IMG/VR virus record: IMGVR_UViG_3300023116_000248 | Location: 1 to 28,692 of that record | Strand: one strand, 5' to 3' | Source: a virus | Length of the DNA: 28,692 bases | Shown here: piece by piece, positions 113 through 27,510 of the stretch | Layout of the letters: the number at the start of each line of letters is the position of its first letter | How positions within the stretch are numbered: position 1 is the stretch's first letter | Position numbers and translations under genes: made by a program | The notes under the pieces: generated by a model | The model's database searches: none | Seen by the model: the letters and a program-made list of their open reading frames with translations, nothing else | What the model was told of the DNA's origin: nothing

Positions 113-132
113 ATAAAATAAAAAAAGTTACG

Positions 133-169
133 CACGCTCCTTGACAGATGTTGGGGAGCGTGTTATTTT
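133..169 (+). promoter_or_regulatory. Sigma-70-like promoter with dyad operator, copy 1
   Basis: -35 TTGACA is at 141-146 and -10 TATTTT at 164-169, spacing 17, with a TG one base upstream of the -10. An inverted repeat, CACGCTCC (133-140) and GGAGCGTG (155-162), brackets the -35. The same arrangement recurs upstream of dnaE and of the methyltransferase gene. It drives the gene at 197. Confidence 0.75.
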
Positions 170-196
170 ATTTATGTACATAACAACGGAGGTACA

Positions 197-799
197 ATGA
201 CTAACCCAAAACTAACCCTTACCGCAATTGTTGCGCTTTCGCTTTTTAACTCAATCGCATCTGGAGAAGATATCGAACCATCAGCAGAAATGCCTTGCGA
301 TGATCCAATTGACGGAGATTCTGATTGGGAAGAGGAAATGGAAGCCGACAAAGCTCGACGACACAACAGAATGCAAGAGCTAATGCAACTGCCGATTAAC
401 AAAAGCAAAAAAGAAAAAGTTGACAGACGAATCTATGGTGTGCTGAATCATCTTGCTCAACGTTGTGCTATTCGAACAACGAATGGAAACTTTGCCGGAG
501 AATGGCAAATCTCATTCAGAGTTGACGATCCTGCCAATACAGGTGGACTCACCCCAAATGTAACGGTTATTTATCAACCGGCCCTTTTGGAGAACCCAAA
601 CGCGGATCTTGCCGGACGGCCTTTGTTTGATACGTATTTCATCAACGGGGTGAAGCATCGCCGACTAATCGATTCGCGAAACATTGACGTTGGAGTTTAT
701 GACTGCATTCATTCAATGATGTCCGATCTTGTTGCGGTGCATAAAACCACTCGCATTGATGGCGTATATTGGGATTATTCTTTGATGATGAAATTCTAA
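197..799 (+). CDS. Secreted protein of unknown function
   Basis: This 200-residue protein starts at an ATG with GGAGG (189-193) at good spacing. Residues 1-23 form a typical Sec signal peptide (polar start, hydrophobic A-I-V-A-L-S-L-F core, cleavage probably after A-S-G), so the mature protein should reach the periplasm or outside. The mature N-terminus is very acidic (D-W-E-E-E-M-E around residues 43-49), followed by a basic stretch and a mixed alpha/beta domain with four cysteines. I do not recognise the family. It sits behind the dyad promoter shared with dnaE and the methyltransferase, so it is probably co-regulated with them. Confidence 0.8.
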   Translation: MTNPKLTLTAIVALSLFNSIASGEDIEPSAEMPCDDPIDGDSDWEEEMEADKARRHNRMQELMQLPINKSKKEKVDRRIYGVLNHLAQRCAIRTTNGNFAGEWQISFRVDDPANTGGLTPNVTVIYQPALLENPNADLAGRPLFDTYFINGVKHRRLIDSRNIDVGVYDCIHSMMSDLVAVHKTTRIDGVYWDYSLMMKF

Positions 800-806
800 A
801 AAAGAA

Positions 807-857
807 CTTGACAAATCCGAACAACGTGATACATTAAATTTATGGAGGATAAAATGA
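807..857 (+). repeat. 50-bp promoter/RBS direct repeat, copy 1
   Basis: This segment holds TTGACA (808-813), extended -10 TGATACATT (-10 hexamer 830-835, spacing 16), and the leader ATGGAGGATAAA before the start codon at 854. It matches 1844-1894 at all but about three positions, so a whole promoter plus ribosome binding site unit has been duplicated in front of two unrelated genes. The predicted transcription start (about 842) falls on the ribosome binding site, giving an untranslated leader of about 12 nt. Confidence 0.8.
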
Positions 858-1141
858 GTTGTCCAAGATACGTTGTAGAAATCAAACTCTATGGAACAGA
901 TTGCAGATACACTTGGAAAATGAAGACAAGAGTTGGAGATCATAAAGGCTTTCAAAAAGAAATGGAAGTGTTAGCAGAACTTGGTGAATTTGAAAGAATC
1001 TCCGAAGGATTCGTAAAACACAATGGCGGGTTAGCGAAGATAGAAAGAGAATGGTTGAAGAAAGTTGCAGCACATAAAGTAATGGAACAACACAGCGAAG
1101 CATTTGAGAAACTTGCGGAGAAAGAAAATGAACAACATTGA
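854..1141 (+). CDS. Small hypothetical protein
   Basis: This 95-residue protein starts at 854, not at the ATG at 842, because GGAGG (844-848) lies exactly between them and the 842 codon would be part of the ribosome binding site. It begins M-S-C-P-R-Y-V-V-E-I-K-L, a likely beta strand, and turns into a long charged helix (many Lys and Glu). No domain was recognised. It is the first gene of a three-gene run (854-1627) with overlapping ends and is driven by the promoter at 808-835. Confidence 0.7.
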   Translation: MSCPRYVVEIKLYGTDCRYTWKMKTRVGDHKGFQKEMEVLAELGEFERISEGFVKHNGGLAKIEREWLKKVAAHKVMEQHSEAFEKLAEKENEQH

Positions 1142-1340
1142 GATTCTATATCAAGAATGCAAAGTGTGCGGAAAAACATTCAAACTTCCAACTCGTAAAG
1201 AACTGGAAAAATCAATCTTGTTCAAAGCCAGCGAGGTTCTCGGAATTGATATGGGAAATGGGCATACAGGCGGGAATAGCCTGTTGGCGATGTTGAACTG
1301 TTCAGTTGAGTGTGCGAGAAAACTGGAAAACAAAGAATGA
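1128..1340 (+). CDS. Small putative zinc-binding protein
   Basis: This 70-residue protein (M-N-N-I-E-I-L-Y) overlaps the preceding gene by 14 nt; a GGAG about 12 nt upstream supports this start. It contains C-x2-C (E-C-K-V-C-G-K-T-F) near the N-terminus and C-x3-C (C-S-V-E-C) near the C-terminus, which could bind one zinc ion. The C-x2-C-G-K-x-F pattern is typical of short phage zinc fingers. The partner is unknown. Confidence 0.65.
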   Translation: MNNIEILYQECKVCGKTFKLPTRKELEKSILFKASEVLGIDMGNGHTGGNSLLAMLNCSVECARKLENKE

Positions 1341-1627
1341 CTGACGAAATCAAAGAAAACCTCTTTGAATATATCTGGGCAGGTATCATTTACGGACACG
1401 GCGGCGATGGGGTTGCTAAAATCTACCTTAAAAAAACCGATGCTAAACAGATGGCAGAAGAGTTTTACGAGTGGATTAAGAAAGAAAAGGATGCCAAGTG
1501 TTTTGACTTGAACAGCGACAGAGCAGCAAAGTATAATGTTTGGTGTAATCAAGAAGGATTTATTTTTACAAACAAAAAATACGAATCAGATCACGAATTT
1601 GACGATTTGATTGTGATAACTTATTAA
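1337..1627 (+). CDS. Small hypothetical protein
   Basis: This 96-residue protein's ATG overlaps the upstream TGA (ATGA at 1337-1340), implying translational coupling. It is soluble and acidic with aromatic-rich segments (F-E-Y-I-W-A-G-I-I-Y-G-H-G-G-D-G) followed by an amphipathic helix, and ends D-D-L-I-V-I-T-Y. No family recognised. It is the last gene before the noncoding stretch. Confidence 0.65.
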   Translation: MTDEIKENLFEYIWAGIIYGHGGDGVAKIYLKKTDAKQMAEEFYEWIKKEKDAKCFDLNSDRAAKYNVWCNQEGFIFTNKKYESDHEFDDLIVITY

Positions 1628-1682
1628 GGAATAAAATGAAAAGATACTTCGCCTCGTAACAAAAAATAAGTGAAACAAAAGG

Positions 1683-1711
1683 TTGACATTCATTTCTAAA
1701 TGAAGTATAAT
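1683..1711 (+). promoter_or_regulatory. Consensus sigma-70 promoter
   Basis: TTGACA (1683-1688), a 17-nt spacer and TATAAT (1706-1711) make a perfect match to the sigma-70 consensus, the strongest in the window. The predicted start is about 1718. No ORF with a ribosome binding site follows for more than 130 nt, so the product is probably an RNA. Confidence 0.85.
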
Positions 1712-1717
1712 TGTCTC

Positions 1718-1793
1718 AAATGAAGTTACCCCGATTGTAACGGGTGGGGCTGGAAACAGTCAGTTAGGTGGTATGGTTGCCTAACACCTTTTT
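1718..1793 (+). ncRNA. Putative structured small RNA, about 76 nt
   Basis: Downstream of the consensus promoter lie three short perfect hairpins: GTTAC/GTAAC with a 7-nt loop (1725-1741), GGCTG-GAAA-CAGTC with a GNRA tetraloop (1748-1761), and GTTAGG/CCTAAC (1763-1785). The last is followed by ACC and TTTTT (1789-1793), like an intrinsic terminator. The GGG after the first stem could also pair with CCC in its loop. It lacks tRNA features such as a T arm and U33. Promoter, compact folding and terminator-like end support a phage small RNA; target and role are unknown. Confidence 0.5.
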
Positions 1794-1843
1794 AGGGAGA
1801 AGAGAATTCAAGAACAATATGTTTCGCAATTTTTCTAAATTTA

Positions 1844-1894
1844 CTTGACAAATCCGAACAACGTGATACATTAAATTCATGGAGGACAACATGA
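1844..1894 (+). repeat. 50-bp promoter/RBS direct repeat, copy 2
   Basis: TTGACA (1845-1850) and TACATT (1867-1872) with spacing 16 and an extended TGA before the -10, then ATGGAGGACAAC in front of the uvsE start at 1891. It is nearly identical to 807-857. Transcription would begin about 1879, on the ribosome binding site itself. Confidence 0.8.
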
Positions 1895-2811
1895 ACTATC
1901 GACTTGGTTATGCATGTATTTGCATGGAACTATCGGCTCAAAAGCCAAAGGTTTCCACAAACCGCACAATGCGTAAAGCAACATTTGAAGAAAAGGGAAT
2001 TGCTTATGCTTCCGAACTTGCCTTGCAAAATGTGCGAGACTTGATGACAATCTTGGAATGGAATGTGGCCAATGGTATCACGTTCTTTCGGATGTCTTCC
2101 GAAATCTTCCCTTGGGCATCCGAGTATGCCCTTGAGGATCTTCCGGACTTTGACGTTATTGAGGAGATTCTGTTTAATTGCGGTTTATATGCAGAAGAGC
2201 ACGGCATTCGCCTTACATGTCATCCCGGTCCATTTAACAAACTTTGCTCGCCCAACGAGTCCGTTGTGCTCAATACCATTCGCGATCTGGAAATCCATGG
2301 TCGTCTTATGGATCTATTATGCCAACCTCGAACTCCGCAAGCAAAGATCAACATTCATGTGGGAGGAGCATATAATGATAAACCTATGGCCCTTGCTAAC
2401 TTTTGCAAGAACTTTGCCCGACTATCGGACGCTGTACAATCTCGACTAACCGTTGAGAACGACGACAAGGAGTCTCTATACTCAACCAAAGAGTTGTACG
2501 ATGGTATATTCAAACAAATAGGCATCCCCATCGTGCATGACTATCACCATCACACAATGTGTACTGGTGGTTTGTCGCAACAGGATGCCGTTGAGTTGGC
2601 ACTCCAAACATGGGGCGATGTCGTTCCTGTTGTTCATTACAGTCAGTCTCGCTCTGTCGAGCACAATGATCCAAAAATCAAACCACAAGCACATTCTGAC
2701 TCTTATTGGACCCCAATCGATACCTATGGCCATCGCATGGACATAATGTTGGAATGCAAACACAAGGAGATTGGTCTGTTTAAGATGCGGGAACTTATGG
2801 GGGAAAGATGA
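1891..2811 (+). CDS. uvsE: UV-damage endonuclease UvsE/UVDE
   Basis: This 306-residue protein matches the length and motifs of the UvsE/UVDE family, metal-dependent TIM-barrel enzymes that nick DNA 5' of UV photoproducts in an excision pathway independent of UvrABC. Visible signatures are the N-terminal R-L-G-Y-A-C, F-F-R-M-S-S-E-I-F-P-W, the C-H-P-G-P strand, N-I-H-V-G-G-A-Y, the V-E-N-D-D metal site and V-H-D-Y-H-H-H. The start is placed at 1891 because the upstream in-frame ATG (1879) overlaps the ribosome binding site. The next gene overlaps by ATGA. It would give the phage its own repair of sunlight damage, which fits surface water. Confidence 0.92.
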   Translation: MNYRLGYACICMELSAQKPKVSTNRTMRKATFEEKGIAYASELALQNVRDLMTILEWNVANGITFFRMSSEIFPWASEYALEDLPDFDVIEEILFNCGLYAEEHGIRLTCHPGPFNKLCSPNESVVLNTIRDLEIHGRLMDLLCQPRTPQAKINIHVGGAYNDKPMALANFCKNFARLSDAVQSRLTVENDDKESLYSTKELYDGIFKQIGIPIVHDYHHHTMCTGGLSQQDAVELALQTWGDVVPVVHYSQSRSVEHNDPKIKPQAHSDSYWTPIDTYGHRMDIMLECKHKEIGLFKMRELMGER

Positions 2812-3365
2812 AGAGATGCAGCAAATGCGGAGAAACAAAACCATTGACGGAGTTTCATAAGAACAAGAGAAAAAAAGATGGCCTTCGTTGCCATTGCAAG
2901 GTATGTGCGGCCGAATACAAACGACGGTACCGTCAAGAAAACAAAGAAGCAATTGCCGAATACCAAAGACAATACCGTGAAGATTACAGAGAAACAAGTC
3001 TCGAATACCAAAGACAGTGGCGTGAAGAAAACAAAGAACGCCTAAGACAGTACCAAGAAAAAAGAAAAGCCAAACAACCCGCATGCGTTTATCAAATTGT
3101 AAACTCCGTGAATGGAAGAGTGTATGTTGGCGAGACAACAAGAGGAGAAATTCGTTGGATTGAGCATCGTAAAAAACTTAGAGGAAATTATCACGACAAC
3201 TCCAACCTCCAAGCCGACTTTAATCAGTTTGGAGAAGATGTCTTTGAGTGGAGCATCATTCAGGAACTTCCAAAAGACAAAGAAGTATTAGAACGAGAAG
3301 AAACAAATACAATCCAAAGACTTCTTGCGGAAGGAAAAGAATTGTATAACATTATTTTAAACTAA
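2808..3365 (+). CDS. Zinc-finger GIY-YIG endonuclease-like protein
   Basis: This 185-residue protein has an N-terminal zinc finger (C4-x2-C7 and C30-x2-C33, with C28 also present), then three 15-residue repeats of the type E-Y-Q-R-Q-Y-R-E-x-Y-R-E (about 36-80) forming a charged helix, then a GIY-YIG nuclease domain (about 92-180) seen as V-Y-Q-I-V-N-S ... V-Y-V-G-E-T with downstream W-x-E-H. It resembles free-standing homing endonucleases, which cut DNA lacking their own gene. It overlaps uvsE by ATGA and has no promoter of its own. Whether it is an active mobile nuclease cannot be told. Confidence 0.8.
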   Translation: MKRCSKCGETKPLTEFHKNKRKKDGLRCHCKVCAAEYKRRYRQENKEAIAEYQRQYREDYRETSLEYQRQWREENKERLRQYQEKRKAKQPACVYQIVNSVNGRVYVGETTRGEIRWIEHRKKLRGNYHDNSNLQADFNQFGEDVFEWSIIQELPKDKEVLEREETNTIQRLLAEGKELYNIILN

Positions 3366-3380
3366 CTTTAAGGAGGAAAA

Positions 3381-3632
3381 ATGAGCGATAAAGCACAAAT
3401 AAGAAAACTGGGAGAGTTGGTTAATCATCCACAGCATTACGGTGGAAAAGAAAACACATACGAAGCAATCAAGGTGATTGATGCTTGGGGTTTGGGTTTC
3501 CATCTTGGGAATGTGATCAAATACATTTCCAGAGCAGGAAAGAAAGATCCAAAGACTCTCATCCAAGATTTAAAGAAAGCATCATGGTATCTTGAGAAAT
3601 ATATTGAGAAACTGGAAACAGAACACGAATGA
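3381..3632 (+). CDS. DUF3310 family phage protein
   Basis: This 83-residue protein has a clear AAGGAGG upstream. It contains the DUF3310 hallmarks V-N-H-P-Q-H-Y-G-G-K near residue 14, Y-E-A-I-K-V-I-D-A-W, and N-V-I-K-Y-I-S-R-A-G-K-K-D followed by D-L-K-K-A-S-W-Y-L. The family is widespread in phages, small and helical; some members are annotated as nucleotide kinase-like, but its function is not settled. It ends just before the dnaE promoter. Confidence 0.88.
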   Translation: MSDKAQIRKLGELVNHPQHYGGKENTYEAIKVIDAWGLGFHLGNVIKYISRAGKKDPKTLIQDLKKASWYLEKYIEKLETEHE

Positions 3633-3657
3633 TGTCATAAACACTAAAAAACTTACG

Positions 3658-3694
3658 CACGTCCCTTGACAAATGTCTTGGGGCGTGTTACTTT
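3658..3694 (+). promoter_or_regulatory. Sigma-70-like promoter with dyad operator, copy 2 (dnaE)
   Basis: -35 TTGACA is at 3666-3671 and extended -10 TGTTACTTT has its hexamer at 3689-3694. The dyad CACGTCCC (3658-3665) and GGGGCGTG (3680-3687) pairs over 8 positions with one T.G. Compared with copy 1 both arms have changed together, so the symmetry is conserved rather than the exact bases. Confidence 0.75.
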
Positions 3695-3725
3695 ATTTAC
3701 ACACAATAAAACATCGGAGGATAAA

Positions 3726-6700
3726 ATGGAAAAAATTAAATTTGTCGGATTACATGCTCACACTGGCGTTGGGTCACCATTTGATGGCCTTGGAAAGCCA
3801 GAAGAACACATGGATTTCGCTTACGAGAATGGATGTGAGGCACTCGCAATCACCGACCACGGCAACATGAATGCGACAGCAGGACAAATTCTTCACGCCA
3901 AGCGTATGAAGAAGCAAGGCAAGAACTTTAAGCCAATCTTTGGTGTTGAGGCATACTTCATTGAGTCTCTTGAAGATTGGAAGGTAAAACTCGAAGAGTA
4001 TCGAGCAGACAAGGATAAGGCAAAGCAGATTGACGATGCTCAGTCTGGAACAACTGTTGAGAACGAAGCAGAGTCAAAGTCTGCTACAAAGTATGACATC
4101 AACCGCAAGCGACACATGGTCCTTGTGGCAATGAACCAAACTGGCCTCAATAACATCTTTAAGTTGGTATCTGCATCATACTCTGGTGAATACTTCTATC
4201 GCAAGCCTCGCATTGACCTCGAACTGCTTAGACAGCACAACGAGGGCATCATTGCTTTGTCTGCTTGCCTTGGTGGTGTTTATGCTGGTTGTTATTGGGA
4301 AAACCGAGAAGAAGGCGAAGAAGCAGTACTTCGGTGTATGCGTGAAATGACTGTTAAAATGACCGACATCTTTGGTGATCGTTGGTATGGTGAGTTGCAA
4401 TGGAATGGCATTTCGGAGCAGCACGAACTAAATAATTATGTTATCAAGATGCACGAGGAGTTTGGAATACCTCTTGTGTCAACCTGTGATTCTCATTACC
4501 CAAATCCAACCGCATGGCAAGACCGTGAACTTTACAAGCGTATTGGTTGGCTTGGCAAGGGAGCACCTGAATGGCTTGATAACAACATCCCTGATCACAT
4601 CGACGAAATGGAATACGAACTGTATCCCAAGAACGGCGAACAAATGTGGGAGGATTACAAAAAGTATTCCAAAGAATGTGGAGTAGAATACAATGATGAA
4701 CTTATCAGACAATCCCTTGAGGAAACATATAAGATCGCTTTTGAGCGCATCGAAGACTTTATTCCTGACAATACTGTCCGTCTTCCAGATTTTGTCGTCC
4801 CTGCTGGCCACACCGCTGACAACTATCTATCACAAATGGCTTTCGAAGGTCTTCTTAAGATCTTGGAGCGACGAGGACTTAGAGATTCTGAGGATACTCT
4901 TGCAACTTACAATGACCGCTTGGGTCATGAGCTTAATGTTATTTCTGATCGTGGGTTCAGTCGTTATTTCCTCACTATGAAGGCAATCGTCGATAAGACC
5001 GACGAAGTGCAACTCGCTGGTCCCGGTCGTGGTTCTGCTGCCGGTTCTCTTGTGGCATACGCTCTTGGCATTACTCAAGTTGACCCTATCAAGTATGGTC
5101 TTCTGTTCTCTCGCTTCTTGCGCGCAGATGCAACCGACTATCCTGACATTGACTTTGACGTAAGCGATCCAATGACTCTCAAGGAAAAGCTGATTAACGA
5201 ATGGGGAGAGAACACTGTTGTTCCTATCTCTAACTTTAATACGCTACAACTCCGTTCTCTTATCAAGGACATATCGAAGTTCTATGACATCCCTTTTACT
5301 GAGGTAAACAAAGTTACTGGCGTGATGATGCGTGAAGCTACAGGCCCTGCTAAGAAGCGCAGAGGTATGAAGGCAGGTATGTATACTCCTACTTTCGAAG
5401 AAGTATGCGAGTTTTCTCCATCACTTCAGGCTTTCTTCCGTAAGTATCCTCGTGTTCAGTCTCACGTTGAGGGATTGATGGGTCAAATCCGATCAACTTC
5501 TCGTCACGCCGGTGGTGTTGTAATCGGTGAACAGTTGGACCAATACATGCCTCTCATTTCTTCTAAGGGTGTTCGTCAGACTCCTTGGTCTGAGGGTCAG
5601 AACGTTCGACAACTTGAGCCAATGGGTTTCATTAAGTTTGACATTCTTGGTCTTGCAACTTTAAGAATGATGGAAGAGTGTATTCGTCGTATCCTTGAGC
5701 GTCATCATGGAGTTGAGAACCCAACCTTCGCAGACATCAAGGCATACTATGATGAGAACCTTCACCCTGACGTTATTAACCTGAACGATCAAGAAGTATA
5801 TGAGAACATCTTCCATGACGGTAAGTGGGTTGGGATCTTCCAGTTCGCTGAGAAAGGAGCACAGAAGTTCGCACAGAAAGCAATGCCAAAGTCTATTGTT
5901 GACATTTCTGCTATCACTTCTATCTTTCGTCCCGGTCCTTTATCTGCTGGTGTTCATAACGATTATGTTGATGCAATCAAAAATCCCTTTAGCATTCGGT
6001 ATGAGAACGAGATCATCGAGGAACTTACAAGAGAAACTCATGGCTTCCTTATCTTTCAGGAGCAAATCGCTTTGTTGGCACACCATCTTGGCAAAGATCT
6101 TGACCTTGATGACGCTAACTTGCTTCGTAAGCTTCTGACCAAGAAAGGTCTTGATCCAGCTAAAGAAGCAAAGAAAGAGGAGATCTACAACAAGTTTGTT
6201 CTTGGGTGTGTTGAGAACGGAATGACTGAGGATATGGCTGATGAACTGTGGCAGAAGTTCGAATACTTCTCTGGCTATGGTTTTAACAAGTCTCACGCTG
6301 TATCTTACTCTATCGTCTCTTATCAGTGCGCTTGGCTTGCAACCTATTACAATGCTGAATGGTGTTGTTCCTTCTTGGACAAAGAACCGGAGACAAGAAA
6401 AGAAAAAGCAATCAATCTTGTAAAAGCTCAGGGTTATGAGGTTAAGCCTCTAAACATCAATACTTCAGGTCGTAACTGGACTGTCCTCAATGGAACAACT
6501 CTTGTTGCTCCTCTCACAACCATCAAAGGTCTTGGAGATGCAGCTATAGATGAGATCATAGAGAAGCGTCCTTTCGTCTCAGTAGAGGACTTGTTGTTCG
6601 ATAAGGGTGTAACTGCTCGGAAGCTAAACAAGAAGTCTCTGGACGCTTTATGCCGCTCTAATGCTATGGTTGATTTGATGGACGAACGTTTCAGTGGTAC

Positions 6701-7178
6701 GAAGCATTTCTGGTCTGCCGTTGTCGTTGATAAGCCGAAGACCAAAAAGAAACTTGCTGAGAACATTGAGAAGTATTTGCCGGAGGGTGACTTCACAAGA
6801 AACGAAATGATTGAGCATGTTCAGGCTCTTACTGGTATCTATCCGATGAACTTAGTGGTTCCTGAAGAACTATTGACTAGGTTCGAAAGAAAGGGTCTGC
6901 CACCAATCTCTGAATACGCTGAAAGCGGTGAAGAGTTCTGCTGGTGCATTCCAATCAACGTTAACTCCAAGAAGACCAAGAACAAGAAGTGGTATCACAT
7001 CATAACTGTTATTGACTCTAACTCCGTAACAACTCAAGTTCGTTGTTGGAACATCGGTAACAATTTTGAAGATAGACCATCGGTTAATGTCCCATACTTC
7101 CTAAAGCCAAAGTATGACCCTGACTGGGGTTTCTCAACTTCTGGTCCGATTGACGCTAACTGGGCAAGACTTGCATAA
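3726..7178 (+). CDS. dnaE: DNA polymerase III alpha subunit (DnaE type)
   Basis: This 1150-residue protein, close to bacterial DnaE length, is the replicative polymerase. The start at 3726 follows GGAGG; the in-frame ATG at 3666 lies inside the -35. Domains in order are an N-terminal PHP domain (H10-A-H12, T-D-H-G-N, G-V-E-A-Y-F, K-R-H, S-A-C-L-G-G, C-D-S-H-Y), a palm with G-P-G-R-G-S-A-A-G-S and catalytic P-D474-I-D476-F-D, third aspartate D639 in K-F-D-I-L-G-L, fingers, a helix-hairpin-helix-like segment (T-T-I-K-G-L-G-D-A-A), and a C-terminal OB-like region. All PHP metal ligands appear intact, unlike in E. coli DnaE, so built-in 3'-5' proofreading is likely. No epsilon, clamp or clamp loader gene is in the window. 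Confidence 0.97.
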   Translation: MEKIKFVGLHAHTGVGSPFDGLGKPEEHMDFAYENGCEALAITDHGNMNATAGQILHAKRMKKQGKNFKPIFGVEAYFIESLEDWKVKLEEYRADKDKAKQIDDAQSGTTVENEAESKSATKYDINRKRHMVLVAMNQTGLNNIFKLVSASYSGEYFYRKPRIDLELLRQHNEGIIALSACLGGVYAGCYWENREEGEEAVLRCMREMTVKMTDIFGDRWYGELQWNGISEQHELNNYVIKMHEEFGIPLVSTCDSHYPNPTAWQDRELYKRIGWLGKGAPEWLDNNIPDHIDEMEYELYPKNGEQMWEDYKKYSKECGVEYNDELIRQSLEETYKIAFERIEDFIPDNTVRLPDFVVPAGHTADNYLSQMAFEGLLKILERRGLRDSEDTLATYNDRLGHELNVISDRGFSRYFLTMKAIVDKTDEVQLAGPGRGSAAGSLVAYALGITQVDPIKYGLLFSRFLRADATDYPDIDFDVSDPMTLKEKLINEWGENTVVPISNFNTLQLRSLIKDISKFYDIPFTEVNKVTGVMMREATGPAKKRRGMKAGMYTPTFEEVCEFSPSLQAFFRKYPRVQSHVEGLMGQIRSTSRHAGGVVIGEQLDQYMPLISSKGVRQTPWSEGQNVRQLEPMGFIKFDILGLATLRMMEECIRRILERHHGVENPTFADIKAYYDENLHPDVINLNDQEVYENIFHDGKWVGIFQFAEKGAQKFAQKAMPKSIVDISAITSIFRPGPLSAGVHNDYVDAIKNPFSIRYENEIIEELTRETHGFLIFQEQIALLAHHLGKDLDLDDANLLRKLLTKKGLDPAKEAKKEEIYNKFVLGCVENGMTEDMADELWQKFEYFSGYGFNKSHAVSYSIVSYQCAWLATYYNAEWCCSFLDKEPETRKEKAINLVKAQGYEVKPLNINTSGRNWTVLNGTTLVAPLTTIKGLGDAAIDEIIEKRPFVSVEDLLFDKGVTARKLNKKSLDALCRSNAMVDLMDERFSGTKHFWSAVVVDKPKTKKKLAENIEKYLPEGDFTRNEMIEHVQALTGIYPMNLVVPEELLTRFERKGLPPISEYAESGEEFCWCIPINVNSKKTKNKKWYHIITVIDSNSVTTQVRCWNIGNNFEDRPSVNVPYFLKPKYDPDWGFSTSGPIDANWARLA

Positions 7179-7186
7179 AAACAACG

Positions 7187-7223
7187 CACGTCCCTTGACA
7201 GATGTCTTGGGGCGTGTTACTAT
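7187..7223 (+). promoter_or_regulatory. Sigma-70-like promoter with dyad operator, copy 3
   Basis: TTGACA at 7195-7200 and TACTAT at 7218-7223 with a TG extension. Dyad arms CACGTCCC (7187-7194) and GGGGCGTG (7209-7216) are identical to those of the dnaE promoter. It drives the methyltransferase gene. Confidence 0.75.
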
Positions 7224-7240: not shown

Positions 7241-8677
7241 ATGAAATTTAATAATATTACCGGTAATCCACCGTTTCAGGACACCAAAAATCGAAAGAAA
7301 ACACAGCACAAACTGTGGATCACATTTACCGAAAAGGCCATGAATGAATGGTTGGAGGATGATGGTTCTCTGCTATGGATTACTCCAAGCTCTTGGGGTT
7401 CTCCAAGCAACAAAGTGCTACAAATCCTAAAAGACAATCAAGTCATGATGCTAAATCTGGACACAAAGAAGCATTTTCCCGGTGTTGGTTCCTTATTTAG
7501 TCATTATAGGGTTGATAAGAAAGAATCAGTTGATAGCTTTCCGATAACATCTAACGAAGTTGAGTTCGATTTCAGTTTTGATGGAGTCTTTTATGTTCCA
7601 AATGATGTTTGTAAGCAATCTTTGTCAATCCACAAGAAAGTTACATTCCAAGATGTCGAAAAGTTTGAGATTAATTACGATTACGTAACCTGTCACAATG
7701 TTATAAGGCATGCTTTTAAACTTCATGACAAGAAAGTCGATGAACTGAAGAAGAAAGCATCAAAAACAACAGAAGCAACAGAATTATCCAAGATCAACGA
7801 GCGATTAGCCAAATTAGCCGAGACCAGAAAGACAATAGACATCACAATTAGCGAAACACAGAGTGCGAAACATGTATATCCTGTGTTTCACACCAACAAC
7901 AAGGTGTGGTACTCTTCGATCAGGCAAGACTTTGCAGACAAGAAAAAAGTTATGTGGTCTAGGAGCGGATATGTCAAAGCTTTTTACGATGATGGCAAAT
8001 ATGGCTGCACAGACATGGGCTATTACATTCTTGTTGACAGCGATGCAGAAGGAGAGCGTCTTGCTTCCTTTATGGGTTCTGAGTTGATGACATATATCTT
8101 TAAGACAGCCAAATGGTCTGGTTTCGGTAACGAAAAGGTGTTTTCATCAATCCCAAAGATCTCTTTGTCAAAAAACCTTACAGATAAAGAAATCTATAGT
8201 CTCTTTGGCATAACAGATAATGAACAAAAGTATATCAAGAGTATCCTGAATCCACCGAAGAAGTCAAGAGCCACAAAGAATGCCGAGAAAGAGATAAAGT
8301 CAGAGGAGAGAGTAAAAAATCTTGGAGAAGTATTCACACCAAGAGAGCTTGTTCTCGAACTACTGAATGAATTACCGGAAGACAGATGGTCTAACCCGAA
8401 CGAGACCTTCATAGATCCAGCCTGTGGTAATGGTAACTTCTTGGTAGAGATTTTCATCAAGCGTTTGGATAGTAACATTGACCCTATGACAGCAGCAGAA
8501 ACTCTCTATGGTATTGACATAATGCCTGATAACATTAGTGAATGTCACAAAAGAATTAGAGAAGTTGCAATGTCTACTAGTGTTGACATGTCCGAGTTTG
8601 ACGAGGTACTACAAAGAAACATTGTGGTTGGTAACTCATTAGAGCAAAAAATTGATGAATTGTTCTTGACAAATTGA
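7241..8677 (+). CDS. Circularly permuted N6-adenine DNA methyltransferase
   Basis: This 478-residue protein starts after GAGGAGGG. The catalytic adenine-methyltransferase motif IV, G-N-P-P-F-Q, is at the very N-terminus (residues 8-13), followed by L-L-W-I-T-P-S-S-W (motif V/VI-like). The middle (about 150-340) is a likely target-recognition region. The C-terminus holds G-E-V-F-T-P (motif X-like), the AdoMet-binding motif I D392-P-A-C-G-N-G-N-F, L-Y-G-I-D-I (motif II) and I-V-V-G-N-S-L, the sequence that normally precedes N-P-P-F. The enzyme therefore looks like a gamma-type (Eco57I-like) methyltransferase cut just before motif IV with its halves swapped. It may protect phage DNA or pair with the next gene; the recognition site is unknown. 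Confidence 0.85.
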   Translation: MKFNNITGNPPFQDTKNRKKTQHKLWITFTEKAMNEWLEDDGSLLWITPSSWGSPSNKVLQILKDNQVMMLNLDTKKHFPGVGSLFSHYRVDKKESVDSFPITSNEVEFDFSFDGVFYVPNDVCKQSLSIHKKVTFQDVEKFEINYDYVTCHNVIRHAFKLHDKKVDELKKKASKTTEATELSKINERLAKLAETRKTIDITISETQSAKHVYPVFHTNNKVWYSSIRQDFADKKKVMWSRSGYVKAFYDDGKYGCTDMGYYILVDSDAEGERLASFMGSELMTYIFKTAKWSGFGNEKVFSSIPKISLSKNLTDKEIYSLFGITDNEQKYIKSILNPPKKSRATKNAEKEIKSEERVKNLGEVFTPRELVLELLNELPEDRWSNPNETFIDPACGNGNFLVEIFIKRLDSNIDPMTAAETLYGIDIMPDNISECHKRIREVAMSTSVDMSEFDEVLQRNIVVGNSLEQKIDELFLTN

Positions 8678-8694
8678 TTAGAACATATTACATT
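8666..8694 (+). promoter_or_regulatory. Sigma-70-like promoter inside the methyltransferase 3' end
   Basis: TTGACA (8666-8671), a 17-nt spacer and TACATT (8689-8694). The -35 lies within the last codons of the methyltransferase gene. It allows separate transcription of the gene at 8732. Confidence 0.7.
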
Positions 8695-8731
8695 ATTAGT
8701 ATATTCAACAACAACACTCCTCGGAGAAACA

Positions 8732-9937
8732 ATGAAGAACATCCAAAAAAGACACATTGTAAGAAAAGCTGAGATTGCTAATGAATACTTGCTGGCACAG
8801 TTTGTAGCAGAAGGTCTTGAGCAAGAAGGATTATCTGTTCCAACTTCTTCAGAGTCATTACGAAACGAATACGACCAGTATCTTCTTTCTTTGCCACAAG
8901 AATATATGGATGTCAAAACCAGAGCAAAGCTTGACTCAGAGATAGAGCACTTGAGGCCACTTACTGAATCTAGCGCAGTATCTTTAGTGCGGTCTATAGT
9001 GGCCAAATACTCTCATATTGAGCAAGTAAGGGTCTCTCCCTATAACAAGGAGGGTCTGAAAGAAGGCGTTGGTCAAAAAGCAGATTTGCTTGTAGAGGTA
9101 TTGTCTTCTGGTGAATGGGACTCTGTGTACGTGTCTCTGAAGCAGTATAGTGAGTTCTCGAACCCACAAGTTGCATCCGGTACTTTCTTCTCCACCATTG
9201 CAGGCTTGTCTTTTGACATTGCCGGTCGAGGTAGTTACTTTGCTCCTGACGGGTCTAAGTTTGGCTCAAAAGCAAAAGATTACAATACTTTGGTGACACA
9301 TTTTGTATCAAGTTATGGTGACCAGTGCCGAGGTCCATTACAGAGACTCAGAGAGGCCAGTAACGAAGTTCATAAGCTCCGATATGAAGAGATAAGACCA
9401 TCAGAGCAAGTTCTTGATTTAGCTAGAAAGACAGCTGGTGACAATGCTATTCCTGAGTTTGTCAGTCTTTTGGGTGATGTGTATTCCAGTAGCCCATCAG
9501 TGCTGAAAGATCGATTTTTGACAAGGGCTGGTCTAAAAGCAGACTCTGGGAAAGAAATGCTTTACACAGCTTATAAGAACGGCCAACCAGTAACCTTTAA
9601 CACGCTTACCGATAAGAAGTTTTCTAATCTTATCAGAGAGATAAACAAAGATGATGTGGAGATCAGAATAACAAGAAGCGGTTCTAATCAAGATGGCCAA
9701 GGTGTTTCTTTTTGTTTCTATAGAGGTGATAATCTTTTGTTACGTGCCGATATGCCATTGACCATTAACATCAATGGTGCTTGGGCAAATGAGGATCGTT
9801 ATTGTCGTGTGAGCAAGCAACACATTTTGGCTAACCATCGTCGGCCAAAGAAAGCAATGCAGCTTGACACTTCTACAAATGTCTGGGTAAAACTGGTACC
9901 ACTATTCAATGAAATTCTAAAAAACAGGGAGATTTAA
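8732..9937 (+). CDS. Unknown protein with a possible PD-(D/E)xK-like nuclease core
   Basis: This 401-residue soluble protein starts after CTCGGAGAAAC. The N-terminal 100 residues are helical. Then K-A-D118-L-L-V-E-V, a short acidic turn, and V-Y-V-S135-L-K137-Q-Y form the strand-turn-strand layout seen around the catalytic D and (E/S)-x-K of PD-(D/E)xK enzymes. Serine in place of Glu is a deviation, so this is only a structural suggestion. The C-terminal half (about 280-370) is beta-rich. It directly follows a DNA methyltransferase, which makes a restriction partner possible, but it has its own promoter. A similar D...S-L-K pattern occurs in the protein at 14226. Confidence 0.6.
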   Translation: MKNIQKRHIVRKAEIANEYLLAQFVAEGLEQEGLSVPTSSESLRNEYDQYLLSLPQEYMDVKTRAKLDSEIEHLRPLTESSAVSLVRSIVAKYSHIEQVRVSPYNKEGLKEGVGQKADLLVEVLSSGEWDSVYVSLKQYSEFSNPQVASGTFFSTIAGLSFDIAGRGSYFAPDGSKFGSKAKDYNTLVTHFVSSYGDQCRGPLQRLREASNEVHKLRYEEIRPSEQVLDLARKTAGDNAIPEFVSLLGDVYSSSPSVLKDRFLTRAGLKADSGKEMLYTAYKNGQPVTFNTLTDKKFSNLIREINKDDVEIRITRSGSNQDGQGVSFCFYRGDNLLLRADMPLTININGAWANEDRYCRVSKQHILANHRRPKKAMQLDTSTNVWVKLVPLFNEILKNREI

Positions 9938-12222: not shown

Positions 12223-12251
12223 TTGACAATATCATAGAATGTGTTAATAAT
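12223..12251 (+). promoter_or_regulatory. Sigma-70-like promoter abutting a terminator
   Basis: TTGACA (12223-12228), a 17-nt spacer and AATAAT (12246-12251). The expected start, about 12258, falls inside the left arm of the terminator hairpin beginning at 12256. It drives the genes from 12292. Confidence 0.7.
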
Positions 12252-12255
12252 ATAG

Positions 12256-12280
12256 GGAGAGGGAAACCTCTCCTTTTTTT
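12256..12280 (+). terminator. Strong intrinsic terminator
   Basis: Perfect 7-bp stem GGAGAGG/CCTCTCC closed by a GAAA tetraloop and followed by seven T. It ends transcripts of the acidic protein gene. Because the neighbouring promoter starts within its left arm, transcripts from that promoter could form only a shortened stem. Confidence 0.9.
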
Positions 12281-22949: not shown

Positions 22950-22977
22950 TTGACAAATCATTGAGACGTGATATATT
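22950..22977 (+). promoter_or_regulatory. Extended -10 promoter, leaderless start
   Basis: TTGACA (22950-22955), a 16-nt spacer ending TGA, and TATATT (22972-22977). The next start codon (22984) lies 7 nt after the -10, where transcription is expected to begin. Confidence 0.75.
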
Positions 22978-22983
22978 GATTTT

Positions 22984-23151
22984 ATGGTAGAGATTGGTTC
23001 ATTAGTGAGACACAAATCGAGTGGGACTATTGGTATATGTATATACATTTCCCATACCCCAGAGGCCATCCACCATATAGAGGTCTGGGTACCAAACGAT
23101 AGTACCACCCGTTGGTGGTCCGAAGAGTACTGTGAGGTAATATGCAGGTAG
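22984..23151 (+). CDS. Small SH3/KOW-like protein, probably leaderless
   Basis: This 55-residue protein begins M-V-E-I-G-S-L-V-R-H, then G-T-I-G-I-C-I-Y-I and I-E-V-W-V-P-N, ending C-E-V-I-C-R. No ribosome binding site exists between the promoter and ATG. Its last codons (GAG GTA ATA TGC AGG TAG) carry the binding site and start of the next gene, the same junction as in the 27511-28692 array. Confidence 0.65.
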   Translation: MVEIGSLVRHKSSGTIGICIYISHTPEAIHHIEVWVPNDSTTRWWSEEYCEVICR

Positions 23152-23315
23152 GGGACCTGATAAAGATACAAAGTAACGACAAGCAAGTCACTTTGATTGG
23201 CATCTTTCTTGGGGTATCAGAGAAGTTTGATTATAGAATATATTATAATAATGATCGGATTGCCGATTTTGATTTTAGATTTTGGACTTTTGAGGTGATA
23301 GATGGACATAGGTGA
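23142..23315 (+). CDS. Small SH3/KOW-like G-D-L family protein
   Basis: This 57-residue protein overlaps the previous gene by 10 nt. M-Q-V-G-D-L-I-K-I-Q, then L-I-G-I-F-L-G-V, Y-R-I-Y-Y-N-N-D and W-T-F-E-V-I-D-G-H-R. It overlaps the next gene by 14 nt. The binding site GAGG is inside the upstream coding sequence. Confidence 0.65.
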   Translation: MQVGDLIKIQSNDKQVTLIGIFLGVSEKFDYRIYYNNDRIADFDFRFWTFEVIDGHR

Positions 23316-23454
23316 TTTAGTAATGCATAAAGAAGATCGTAGGATTGGGTTAATACAAAGACTACCAGCCATTGGTGACCCATTCTATCTTGTTGAGTTT
23401 GTTGGCTCTGGTCTTTGTTTGTGTCACTTTCATTCATTGGTGCTTGTATGTTAA
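23302..23454 (+). CDS. Small SH3/KOW-like G-D-L-V family protein
   Basis: This 50-residue protein has GAGG eight nt upstream within the previous gene. M-D-I-G-D-L-V-M-H-K, R-R-I-G-L-I-Q-R-L, F-Y-L-V-E-F-V-G, ending H-S-L-V-L-V-C. Overlaps the next ORF by 7 nt. Confidence 0.65.
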   Translation: MDIGDLVMHKEDRRIGLIQRLPAIGDPFYLVEFVGSGLCLCHFHSLVLVC

Positions 23455-23627
23455 AAGAGCTTAATGAAGGCGATCTTGTTTTGGTCGAGTCCGATGTTCC
23501 TGCTGGTATTGCTCAACTATCGTTTATTGGTATAGTGGTATCTATTAGTCCTTATTTTGTTCACGTTGTCAATCTCAAAGACGCAAAGAGTTATAGGATC
23601 ACTCCCGATTGGTGCGAGGTTATATAA
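23448..23627 (+). CDS. Small SH3/KOW-like G-D-L-V family protein
   Basis: This 59-residue protein begins M-L-K-E-L-N-E-G-D-L-V-L-V, then F-I-G-I-V-V-S-I-S, Y-F-V-H-V-V-N-L and ends D-W-C-E-V-I. It closes the 22984-23627 sub-array. No obvious ribosome binding site; translational coupling to the overlapping upstream gene is likely. Confidence 0.65.
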   Translation: MLKELNEGDLVLVESDVPAGIAQLSFIGIVVSISPYFVHVVNLKDAKSYRITPDWCEVI

Positions 23628-23645
23628 AAAACTTTATCTTTTTAC

Positions 23646-23673
23646 TTGACAAAACTTTTCATCGTGATACAAT
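23646..23673 (+). promoter_or_regulatory. Extended -10 promoter
   Basis: TTGACA (23646-23651), a 16-nt spacer ending CGTGA, and TACAAT (23668-23673). Preceded by the AAAAAACTTTATCTTTTTA block. It drives the membrane protein gene at 23705. Confidence 0.8.
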
Positions 23674-23704
23674 AATAACAACTCAACAACAAAGGAGAAA
23701 AACA

Positions 23705-24064
23705 ATGAGTGTAAAAAACCCTTTTGAAGACAATAAAAACAGAGAGCAGACCAGAAAGTGGCTTGCGGATAAGATTGACTACTATGCAAACTGGCTATAT
23801 CTCTTTGATCAAATAACCAAATGGTCTGGCTGGCTCTTCTTGATTATTTCACTCGTCTGGACAATCTATAGCACTTTGTCTGGGGTTTCTAACTCCCGAC
23901 CCAGCCAACAATCAGCAATGATGTTATCAGGGCTTCTGACTGGCTTTGTTACTCTTTTTGCGTGGTTTGCTTATGAAATGTGGAGGTCCATCTCTTTTGG
24001 TGTGCTTTGGACCCTTGCTGCAATCGAAGAATGGACTCGTCCATCACAACTCAGCGATGACTGA
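23705..24064 (+). CDS. Two-span membrane protein
   Basis: This 119-residue protein starts after AAGGAGAAAAAC. Polar N-terminus with W-L-A-D-K-I-D-Y-Y, then membrane spans about 40-60 (G-W-L-F-L-I-I-S-L-V-W-T-I-Y) and about 75-96 (L-S-G-L-L-T-G-F-V-T-L-F-A-W-F), then an amphipathic aromatic tail. No family recognised. Holin-like topology is possible, but it is far from the endolysin. Confidence 0.75.
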   Translation: MSVKNPFEDNKNREQTRKWLADKIDYYANWLYLFDQITKWSGWLFLIISLVWTIYSTLSGVSNSRPSQQSAMMLSGLLTGFVTLFAWFAYEMWRSISFGVLWTLAAIEEWTRPSQLSDD

Positions 24065-24099
24065 GTTGGAACATCAACCCTTTAACAACGGAGGTCATC

Positions 24100-24438
24100 A
24101 TGGCCCGTTACAAAGACTGCGTTCATTGCGGTGATACATTTAGACTAGATGCTCCTCGCAAGAGGCGCGTCGGTGGTAAGATTAACGAGTGTGCTGATTG
24201 TGTCGAGGAACTTGATACAGAAACAGCACCAGTAATCCGAGGCTTTGTCTCTGGCTCTGCAAAGCAAGCAGCAATCTCTTTTGTCAGGTTTGACAATGAG
24301 AAAGACGCAGTGCGCTATGGCAAAGCATGGAGAGCCAATAGTGGATGGAACAATCAACGGACTGGTGGATTGAATGACGTAACATTCTCTCACGCTGGCG
24401 CAAATGCAACCGAAGAACCAAAAAAGAAAGGGGCCTAA
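24100..24438 (+). CDS. Putative zinc-ribbon protein
   Basis: This 112-residue protein starts after ACGGAGGTCATC. The N-terminus holds C-V-H-C-G-D-T-F and C-A-D-C, a four-cysteine zinc ribbon within the first 35 residues. The remainder (R-F-D-N-E-K-D-A-V-R-Y-G-K-A-W) looks like a small alpha/beta domain with a lysine-rich end. Nucleic-acid binding is plausible for the ribbon. Function unknown. Confidence 0.7.
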   Translation: MARYKDCVHCGDTFRLDAPRKRRVGGKINECADCVEELDTETAPVIRGFVSGSAKQAAISFVRFDNEKDAVRYGKAWRANSGWNNQRTGGLNDVTFSHAGANATEEPKKKGA

Positions 24439-24439
24439 G

Positions 24440-24640
24440 ATGACGACAGAAACAGAGTTTGAGAAAGCACAGAAGTTTGCATTAAGAATGGTAGAGAGAT
24501 TTACTTTGACCGAACTACTACTTAATAGTATGGAGATGATCGATACCCTTCCAGAAGATCAAAAAGATGCAGCATGGCAAGCAGTTATGTTATTGGTCGA
24601 AGGGGCTAAAAAAAGCGGAGTGTTGATCGCGGAGGCATAA
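24440..24640 (+). CDS. Small helical hypothetical protein
   Basis: This 66-residue protein starts at ATG 24440, two bases after the upstream stop, with GGGG as a weak binding site. All-helical, acidic and Met-rich (L-T-E-L-L-L-N-S-M-E-M-I). No family recognised. Confidence 0.6.
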   Translation: MTTETEFEKAQKFALRMVERFTLTELLLNSMEMIDTLPEDQKDAAWQAVMLLVEGAKKSGVLIAEA

Positions 24641-24641
24641 T

Positions 24642-24827
24642 GTGGATTATGAGATAGGTGACCTCGTTATTGATGACATCATGGGCATTGGGCTAATCAT
24701 TGACATTATGCACGATGATAATGATGTTGATGGGCTGATCTATCTCGTTTTCTATGCTAAAGATGACCAACACGTTTTAGAGTATTCAGATGAACTAGTA
24801 CCCTACTACCCTGACTACATGGACTAA
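24642..24827 (+). CDS. Small SH3/KOW-like G-D-L-V family protein
   Basis: This 61-residue protein starts at GTG 24642, six nt after GGAGG (24631-24635). D-Y-E-I-G-D-L-V-I-D-D, G-I-G-L-I-I-D-I-M, I-Y-L-V-F-Y-A-K, then a very acidic end. A competing ATG at 24640 gives only five codons. Confidence 0.65.
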   Translation: MDYEIGDLVIDDIMGIGLIIDIMHDDNDVDGLIYLVFYAKDDQHVLEYSDELVPYYPDYMD

Positions 24828-24840
24828 TACAGGAGAAACA

Positions 24841-25140
24841 ATGGCAAATCTAGCATTCAGCAAGAAAGAACCTTGGGCAAAAGCTCAAGACGCAATGACT
24901 AAGCACATTCTGGACCAAACCGATGGTGCTTTTAAAGTGAGACAGGATGAAGGAGCGATCTGTGTTTATGCCGAAAGACCAGATACTTTGCCAGAGGGAC
25001 CAGCAGGCTATATGCTAAATCCACCATCTGCTTATCGAGAAGGTGCTGATCTCCCTGTTCGCTTTATGGGCTGGAGATGTGTTTATTTCTCTGTTCCTTC
25101 TGGCTATCTTGATTATATGTGGAAGAAGAGTAAGCAATGA
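24841..25140 (+). CDS. Hypothetical protein
   Basis: This 99-residue protein starts after CAGGAGAAACA. Alpha/beta in appearance with a Pro-rich middle (D-T-L-P-E-G-P-A-G-Y) and R-C-V-Y-F-S-V-P-S-G-Y-L-D-Y-M-W near the end. No family recognised. Its stop overlaps the next start (ATGA). Confidence 0.65.
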   Translation: MANLAFSKKEPWAKAQDAMTKHILDQTDGAFKVRQDEGAICVYAERPDTLPEGPAGYMLNPPSAYREGADLPVRFMGWRCVYFSVPSGYLDYMWKKSKQ

Positions 25141-25343
25141 CCTCTCAAATACTAGAAGTTGGTGATCTGGTTCATTACATCCAGAGACCTGTTTATGACG
25201 GTGATTATCCAGAGGACTTCGGCATCGTTCTTAGGCTCTATAAAGAGGGCTATGTGGTTGTCCATTGGTTTCGCGAAGGAGCCACATCCATAGAGAAAAA
25301 AGTGAGACAAACAAACGATGGCCCCATGAAAAAGATTGCGTAA
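25137..25343 (+). CDS. Small SH3/KOW-like G-D-L-V family protein
   Basis: This 68-residue protein reads L-E-V-G-D-L-V-H-Y-I, F-G-I-V-L-R-L-Y, G-Y-V-V-V-H-W-F-R, with a basic end K-K-I-A. ATGA overlap with the preceding gene indicates coupling. Confidence 0.65.
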   Translation: MTSQILEVGDLVHYIQRPVYDGDYPEDFGIVLRLYKEGYVVVHWFREGATSIEKKVRQTNDGPMKKIA

Positions 25344-25377
25344 TCTTCGAGGCCCATAAAAAACTTTATCTTTTTTC

Positions 25378-25405
25378 TTGACAAATCAAAACATCGTGAT
25401 ACATT
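25378..25405 (+). promoter_or_regulatory. Extended -10 promoter
   Basis: TTGACA (25378-25383), 16 nt ending CGTGA, TACATT (25400-25405). Preceded by AAAAAACTTTATCTTTTTTC. Drives the gene at 25428. Confidence 0.8.
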
Positions 25406-25427
25406 ATAAACATCAATGGAGGCGACG

Positions 25428-25613
25428 ATGAAAGCAGGCGACTTGGTTGTCTGGAACTGGTGGTCAGACACAGAAGGTGATGGTCAAAGCGTTGGTGTAA
25501 TCAAAAGAGTTTGGGAGTCTTACCTTACATCAGGGTTGTTTTTCTATGAAGTCCAGTTTGGTGACGGTTCTATTGTTCACGACCTATTAGAAAAAGAGTT
25601 GGAGTTGTTATGA
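25428..25613 (+). CDS. Small SH3/KOW-like G-D-L-V family protein
   Basis: This 61-residue protein starts at 25428; the in-frame ATG at 25416 is fused to the GGAGG. M-K-A-G-D-L-V-V-W-N-W-W, S-V-G-V-I-K-R-V-W, F-Y-E-V-Q-F-G-D-G, ending L-E-L-L. It has its own promoter. Confidence 0.7.
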   Translation: MKAGDLVVWNWWSDTEGDGQSVGVIKRVWESYLTSGLFFYEVQFGDGSIVHDLLEKELELL

Positions 25614-25632
25614 TAAAAATAATGAAAACTAC

Positions 25633-25660
25633 TTGACAAATCTTTAAGACATGATACGTT
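25633..25660 (+). promoter_or_regulatory. Extended -10 promoter
   Basis: TTGACA (25633-25638), 16 nt ending CATGA, TACGTT (25655-25660). Drives the gene at 25682. Confidence 0.75.
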
Positions 25661-25681
25661 ACAAACAACCAAGGAGGAAAC

Positions 25682-25930
25682 ATGACTTCATTCTGGAAAC
25701 AGTATCTCGCGCACAACAACGCAACACCCTATGAAAAATCAACAGGTGTCACACCACAGGCTGGTGATCTTGTGATTGTAAAGACAACTTTGATGGACCC
25801 TGAGTATCCGATGTTTGTGGTGGGTTGCATTCTTGATGCCGAGCATCCCTTTGGAGATGCTGGTGTAACAGTCACGTTCCGTGGCGAGACACGCGAGATG
25901 CATTACACTTGGTTAAGAAAAGTTTGTTAA
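25682..25930 (+). CDS. SH3/KOW-like G-D-L-V family protein with N-terminal extension
   Basis: This 82-residue protein follows AAGGAGGAAAC. About 25 polar residues precede Q-A-G-D-L-V-I-V-K, then F-V-V-G-C-I-L-D-A and V-T-V-T-F-R-G-E, ending Y-T-W-L-R-K-V-C. Confidence 0.65.
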   Translation: MTSFWKQYLAHNNATPYEKSTGVTPQAGDLVIVKTTLMDPEYPMFVVGCILDAEHPFGDAGVTVTFRGETREMHYTWLRKVC

Positions 25931-25935
25931 AATAC

Positions 25936-25963
25936 TTGACAAATCTTTGAGACGTGATACATT
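25936..25963 (+). promoter_or_regulatory. Extended -10 promoter
   Basis: TTGACA (25936-25941), 16 nt ending CGTGA, TACATT (25958-25963). Drives the 25994-26665 run of three genes. Confidence 0.8.
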
Positions 25964-25993
25964 ACTACTACCCACCCAAGTACAGGAGACATT

Positions 25994-26236
25994 ATGCCTA
26001 AGAAGCGAAAGATCAAGAACCCCTACAAGTTAACACTAGAAGAAGCAATACAGATTGCCGAAGGAGAGAAAGAGGTAGATGAGGACAAGTACATCGCAAC
26101 TTGGCAATGGCTAATCGACACCGATCATGCTTGGAACCTACAGGGATGGTACGGTAGGGCCGCTGCCGAATACGTGAGAACAGGGCTTTGCACAATGCCC
26201 ATACAATCAAGTGATGGAGGAGACAATGGAAAGTAA
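25994..26236 (+). CDS. Conserved phage small protein
   Basis: This 80-residue protein has a basic N-terminus (P-K-K-R-K-I-K-N-P), then W-Q-W-L-I-D-T-D-H-A-W-N-L-Q-G-W-Y-G-R-A-A and a final G-L-C-T. The W-x-x-L-I-D-T-x-x-x-W-x-L-Q-G-x-x-G-R-x-A pattern is familiar from many tailed phages (recalled). The function of that family is unknown. Overlaps the next gene by 11 nt. Confidence 0.75.
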   Translation: MPKKRKIKNPYKLTLEEAIQIAEGEKEVDEDKYIATWQWLIDTDHAWNLQGWYGRAAAEYVRTGLCTMPIQSSDGGDNGK

Positions 26237-26447
26237 TAACGAGATCAACATCAGCATCAACGTGAGCGACGACTTACTAAAGAAAATGATGTCACTGATG
26301 GTATCAATGAGCCAACCGCCAACAATGGGCATTCCAGCAGCAATGCTCGGAGCATTGGCCGGACCACCACCATCAGCACCAAAGGAAGATAAAACACCAA
26401 TAGGGTTCAGACCACCAGAAACTGCTAACAACAAGGAGAAACAATGA
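26226..26447 (+). CDS. Small hypothetical protein
   Basis: This 73-residue protein starts at 26226 after GGAGGAGACA. N-terminal strand N-I-S-I-N-V-S-D-D and a Met-rich helix, then a proline-rich disordered tail (G-P-P-P-S-A-P-K). No family recognised. ATGA overlap to the next gene. Confidence 0.6.
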   Translation: MESNNEINISINVSDDLLKKMMSLMVSMSQPPTMGIPAAMLGALAGPPPSAPKEDKTPIGFRPPETANNKEKQ

Positions 26448-26665
26448 ATAGCAACCTAAAACCATTCCGCGCTACCACCGAAGAGGCCGTACAAATCTTC
26501 GAGCATATTTATTCGATGTGCCCCACTAACTTTACTTATAGTGCCTTTATGGGGGACAACTTTCAGATTACTTGCAATCGAACTGGAGAAACAATCGTTC
26601 TAGGAATGTGGTCTTTCCGAGACCCAGACAGCGTACTAATCGCATTCAACAAAGATTTTCTATAA
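26444..26665 (+). CDS. Small hypothetical protein
   Basis: This 73-residue protein is coupled to the previous gene by ATGA with AAGGAG ahead. Helix (T-E-E-A-V-Q-I-F-E-H-I-Y) followed by strands (F-Q-I-T-C-N-R-T-G-E-T-I-V-L-G-M-W). No family recognised. Confidence 0.6.
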   Translation: MNSNLKPFRATTEEAVQIFEHIYSMCPTNFTYSAFMGDNFQITCNRTGETIVLGMWSFRDPDSVLIAFNKDFL

Positions 26666-26681
26666 AAGTTAATCTTTTTAC

Positions 26682-26709
26682 TTGACATCTCTCAGCAATG
26701 TGATACATT
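26682..26709 (+). promoter_or_regulatory. Extended -10 promoter
   Basis: TTGACA (26682-26687), 16 nt ending TGTGA, TACATT (26704-26709). Preceded by AAAAGTTAATCTTTTTA. Drives the gene at 26742. Confidence 0.8.
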
Positions 26710-26741
26710 ACTAACACAACCAACAAACATTGGAGGTCAAA

Positions 26742-27500: not shown

Positions 27501-27510
27501 TGGAGGTAGT

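Follow-up and report, generated by a model that had tools for sequence, protein, structure and literature searches.

Each of three sites in the virus record IMGVR_UViG_3300023116_000248 is probably a composite terminator-promoter of about 40 bp that works like the PeSL (promoter-early stem-loop) cassettes. The whole record, 28,692 nt long, is the window analysed here, and most of the phage genome lies outside it. As judged from the anatomy of the sites, a transcript arriving from the upstream gene would carry a hairpin followed by a U-rich stretch and would be terminated or attenuated there. The same base pairs would form a strong host sigma-70 promoter, with a consensus -35 box in the 5' half of the hairpin, a 17-bp spacer that is also the 3' arm, and an extended -10 box that is also the U-tail. 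The fresh transcript would start just downstream, lack the hairpin and so escape the terminator, and the site would both insulate and restart transcription at each module boundary. RNA 3' ends would then be expected within TTATTTTATTT, with fresh 5' ends lying 5-9 nt beyond each -10 box. The use of sigma-70 is suggested by the consensus match.

The three elements and the genes beside them are:

132 to 163, plus strand: RNA hairpin of copy 1, GCACGCTCCTTGAC-AGAT-GTTGGGGAGCGTGT, with 14 pairs, a 4-nt loop, -22.2 kcal/mol and a terminator score of d=+15.2
141 to 169, plus strand: promoter of copy 1 by pattern, TTGACA-N17-TATTTT with a TG extension
197 to 799, plus strand: ORF of 200 aa that follows copy 1, its N-terminus hydrophobic; relatives were not found to carry this cargo
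1879 to 2811, plus strand: UvdE-like UV endonuclease, a conserved gene between copies 1 and 2
2808 to 3365, plus strand: gene resembling endonuclease VII/GIY-YIG homing endonucleases, variable cargo in the interval from UvdE to copy 2
3657 to 3688, plus strand: RNA hairpin of copy 2, with 9+3 pairs, a UU/UU internal loop, a U-G wobble in the arm and -20.8 kcal/mol
3666 to 3694, plus strand: promoter of copy 2 by pattern, TTGACA-N17-TACTTT, upstream of dnaE
3726 to 7178, plus strand: dnaE, DNA polymerase III alpha type, 1150 aa, a conserved gene between copies 2 and 3
7186 to 7217, plus strand: RNA hairpin of copy 3, near-identical to copy 2 and different from the relatives' element at the same place
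7195 to 7223, plus strand: promoter of copy 3 by pattern, TTGACA-N17-TACTAT
7241 to 8677, plus strand: Eco57I/N6-type DNA methyltransferase, 478 aa, cargo downstream of copy 3
8732 to 9937, plus strand: protein of 401 aa with no assigned family, the second cargo gene after copy 3

The promoters are those named in a preliminary description of this DNA, which had also noted their dyad arms; both are present as quoted. TTGACA lies at 141, 3666 and 7195, the spacer is 17 nt in all three, and the -10 boxes (TATTTT, TACTTT and TACTAT in copies 1, 2 and 3) are each preceded by TGT, which makes them extended -10 elements. The arms occupy 133-140/155-162 in copy 1, 3658-3665/3680-3687 in copy 2 and 7187-7194/7209-7216 in copy 3. 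In a local pattern search allowing up to 3 mismatches, TTGACANNTGTNNTGGGGCGTG has 3 matches in the window, only at these sites, against 0.03 expected, which excludes chance for the three. An Rfam search of the window gave no match. In copy 1 the -35 box sits in the loop-proximal hairpin arm, the spacer is the 3' arm and the -10 region is the U-rich tail. In copy 3, which folds at -20.8 kcal/mol, a UU/UU internal loop separates 9 pairs from 3 others, and the RNA folding z-scores are -4.6, -5.8 and -4.2 for copies 1, 2 and 3.

The preliminary description had both arms changing together with symmetry kept. Symmetry is complete only in copy 1 (8/8). The arms of copies 2 and 3, CACGTCCC/GGGGCGTG, match at 7/8 positions in DNA because a T faces a G, and they pair completely only as RNA, through a U-G wobble. 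Likewise, between copy 1 and copies 2 and 3 one paired change is compensatory (U-A to C-G) and the other is one-sided (C-G to U-G).

By its own terms, the preliminary description would have been refuted by an absence of further copies and of conserved symmetry in relatives; relatives proved to conserve both the copies and their pairing. The relatives, all uncultivated fragments, were gathered by scanning viral contigs for the pattern and by searching for dnaE, and 34 distinct elements were collected from viral contigs; two of these (in L072 and L091) come from contig groups outside demonstrated kinship with the window. A covariance model built from 19 copies matched further copies in the relatives' full records. 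Promoter and hairpin coincide in all copies, and most hairpins fold at -18 to -22 kcal/mol. The arm sequences vary (CACGCTCC, CACGGTCC, CATGCCGC, CACACCCC, ACAAGCCC and TTAAACCC among them), and pairing is retained. In the 26 of the 34 copies that align without gaps, 85% of cells are paired; sliding the 3' side lowers this to 37-56%. Changes on both sides occur at 5 pairs. Such changes fill 23 cells, whereas shuffling gives 5.1 and none of 500 shuffles reached the observed number, counts that are not probabilities since the sequences are related and the cells are not independent events. The earlier set of 19 sequences gives the same picture. Copies 2 and 3 are near-identical across 38 bp, as they would be if the repeat had no function as such and its copies were recent duplicates, alike by descent. 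That reading is highly improbable, as it leaves unexplained the double-sided changes in 26-34 distinct copies, which neither shuffles nor register sliding reproduce.

Across all 34 copies, arm mismatches comprise 16 G-U and 2 A-C, and in 31 of them folding favours the sense RNA over the antisense; both counts are to be read with the copies not being independent. One subset of relatives has CATGCCCC/GGGGCATG arms that form a nearly perfect DNA dyad, so that sense and antisense are poorly separated there. Kept pairing, excess of wobbles and sense bias together indicate that what is conserved is a hairpin of RNA, formed in transcripts that come in from the upstream gene. A transcript initiated at the element's own promoter would start beyond the hairpin. 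This is good evidence, drawn from sequence comparison, for selection on RNA pairing in the promoter direction, and of the two explanations offered in the preliminary description it supports the hairpin in read-through transcripts.

The other explanation, an operator whose dyad binds a dimeric phage regulator co-regulating three operons, is very unlikely. An inverted repeat around the -35 boxes of three promoters in one genome is what it predicts, and the CATGCCCC/GGGGCATG dyads would suit it. However, a protein-binding palindrome should conserve its sequence and tolerate G-T no better than A-C, and here the arms vary while pairing is kept and the wobbles break the symmetry of DNA, not the pairing of RNA. 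A scan of 10 small ORFs found no helix-turn-helix family, although the window holds only a minor part of the phage genome. The conserved palindromic DNA sequence of an operator was not observed, and the reading was rejected on the arm variation and the common wobbles.

The strand and the length of the stem bear on one more reading, in which the sites are N4-type DNA-hairpin promoters and a virion RNA polymerase reads an extruded template-strand hairpin. N4 virion-RNA-polymerase promoters have a hairpin stem of 5-7 bp. The likeness is that the promoter overlaps an inverted repeat, and the differences lie in polymerase signals, stem length and strand: the sites match sigma-70 (TTGACA, 17 nt, TGnTA), the template strand folds worse, and the stem, at 12-14 pairs, is far longer. 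This reading is scarcely credible; a short template-strand hairpin with N4-type conserved bases was not found, and the reading was rejected on strand, stem length and the sigma-70 hexamers.

A terminator-like U-tail is one of two features that go beyond the preliminary description, the other being the link to variable gene cassettes. The -10 region directly follows the 3' arm and, in the window's three copies, is T-rich and not TATAAT-like; tails hold 6.4 T in 12 nt as against 5.0 at hairpin-less promoters. By the score of d'Aubenton Carafa, which exceeds 0 in 0.3% of random 90-mers from these phages (99th percentile -13.8), copy 1 reaches +15.2, copy 2 -8.7 and copy 3 -15.2, and the remaining copies range from +10.5 to -47. 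Only 2 of 18 copies score above zero, the cut-off used for intrinsic terminators, most others being borderline, and weak U-tails occur, UUACAUUAUAUA for example. Termination is thus likely at copy 1 and plausible at the remaining copies. Like intrinsic (Rho-independent) terminators, the elements combine a GC-rich RNA hairpin with a U-rich stretch after it; they differ in holding a consensus promoter inside the hairpin and, in most phage copies, in the weakness of the U-tail.

A strong sense-RNA hairpin with only moderate U-tails in most copies could also stabilise the 3' end of the upstream mRNA or serve as an RNase processing site, overlapping the promoter for compactness. We regard this as unlikely, since two copies score as genuine terminators, copies 2 and 3 stand around the top 1%, and the tails are enriched in T relative to hairpin-less promoters. 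An elaboration of the terminator-promoter, and a very improbable one, is a recycling device in which the polymerase that terminates in the U-tail, still at the superimposed -10 box, is re-used for initiation there. Were it true, read-through would be converted to fresh starts at module boundaries and not merely stopped.

The hairpin is not forced by the promoter motif, because a second class of promoters, which read TTGACA-N16-TACATT or nearly so and likewise carry the TG extension, occurs without it:

808, 1845, 22950, 23646, 25378, 25633, 25936, 26682 and 27689: promoters of the N16 class

When the promoters of the window and its relatives are split at -12 kcal/mol, the folding energy averages -19.9 kcal/mol in 18 of them and -2.8 kcal/mol in the other 36, the hairpin class being selected as those below -12.

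Other promoters in the window are arranged in further ways. An array of small-ORF operons spans 22950-27716, each with a near-identical N16 extended -10 promoter, and several have an upstream A-tract/T-tract sequence resembling an UP element. At 1683-1795 a perfect TTGACA-N17-TATAAT promoter precedes some 75 nt of non-coding DNA that close with a hairpin and a T-rich tail, possibly a small RNA; it has no Rfam match, its core has no exact copy in viral contigs, and its folding z is only -0.9. At 12223-12275 the expected start of a promoter falls inside the 5' arm of a strong terminator hairpin (GGGAGAGGGAAACCTCTCC plus TTTTTTT, d=+40.7), and a transcript begun at this promoter would have only a shortened stem. 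That layout recurs with changed sequence, down to about 66% DnaE identity, at L008 2488(-), L011 11509(+) and L012 5879(+).

The elements lie at the borders of variable genes, and the same borders carry elements in five related contigs, the window included: before dnaE in 5 of 5, and after dnaE in all 4 that reach that far. Before dnaE, the cargo is a homing-endonuclease-like gene in the window and in L010, and a GmrSD_N-like gene in L011. After dnaE, the window has the Eco57I-like methyltransferase and the 401-aa protein, which we would guess to be the restriction partner of the methyltransferase; L010 has an unrelated methyltransferase and a 254-aa protein, and nothing is inserted in L008 and L011. 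Copy 3 of the window is of the copy 2 type, whereas L008, L010 and L011 carry different elements at that place, and the adjoining end of dnaE still aligns. This placement suggests a transfer between elements. Recombination between copies may be how cargo is exchanged and gene modules are shuffled. The cargo beside the elements varies among relatives and copy 3 looks transplanted, but no recombination event was observed. The elements would also mark where these phages swap methyltransferase- and endonuclease-type cargo.

Methyltransferase and GmrSD-type genes fill element-bounded slots beside dnaE at 7241-9937 in the window, 7111-8904 in L010 and 4407-5642 in L011. Some come with partner genes that lack an assigned function, and the slots vary among relatives.

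Several of the element-carrying contigs are linked by a DnaB-type helicase (61-66% identity). A relative of 187 kb (G024, locus L035), with a DnaE 73% identical to that of the window, encodes the T4-type families Gp23 (major capsid) and gp20 (portal). T4-type head genes in a relative with DnaE make the group look like a T4-like branch that uses a DnaE polymerase. We infer that the window's own fragment belongs to the T4-like phages, the capsid and portal genes having been observed in G024. Among dnaE relatives at a greater distance (59-62% identity), most gave no good match to the covariance model, DnaE of phage isolates is below 60% identity, and the tight pattern was found in bacterial genomes only in two Clostridia contigs, where the matches have other surroundings.

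Two observations concern related and unrelated contigs. G024 and its relatives form an uncultivated group in which T4-type capsid, portal, UvsX, SSB and helicase genes, spread over several contigs, accompany a DnaE polymerase and GroEL. A separate contig group (L072 3168, L075 7205 and L086 7000) shows no relation to the window's proteins and carries the hairpin-promoter GCAGCCCTTGACACAAGTCGAGGGCTGTGTTATAAT, at -25.1 kcal/mol one of the strongest among near matches.

PeSL cassettes were reportedly described in T4-like myoviruses by Arbiol in 2010. Titles and citing papers present the PeSLs of T4-like phages as motifs that unite a promoter with a terminator and through which modules are shuffled. 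Against that outline, the likeness lies in a strong sigma-70-like promoter fused to a stem-loop, in several copies per genome at the borders of variable modules, and in a group of phages whose capsid and portal are of T4 type; the difference, within the same outline, is the DnaE and GroEL lineage. Of the PeSL features, the sigma-70-like TTGACA-N17-TGTTA promoter in all copies, the stem-loop fused to it and the T4-like carrier group were found here. A literature search for published promoter-in-terminator overlaps returned nothing on point. In the haloarchaeal virus HGTV-1, a conserved promoter with an inverted repeat precedes many ORFs and has been likened to PeSLs (PMC3950731), but that promoter is of the archaeal TATA-box type and the present one is of the sigma-70 type.

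Our analysis adds an uncultivated lineage, with DnaE and with head genes of T4 type, to the phages known to carry composite promoter/stem-loop cassettes, and supplies covariation evidence for a stem-loop acting as sense RNA. It also provides a natural series of compact candidate terminator-promoters with matched arm changes that are directly testable. In the approximately 89 kb of RB49 covered by our comparison, many promoters overlap hairpins whose loop in most cases falls within the spacer (+14) or near the -10 box (+24.5), whereas here the loop comes just after the -35 box (+6.5) and the -10 box doubles as the U-tail. A similar layout, with the -35 box inside the stem and the loop at +8, is found at only one RB49 promoter, which lies at 18532, immediately before gene 43 (DNA polymerase). 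The elements fit a PeSL-like set in a DnaE-bearing lineage, in which one layout predominates.
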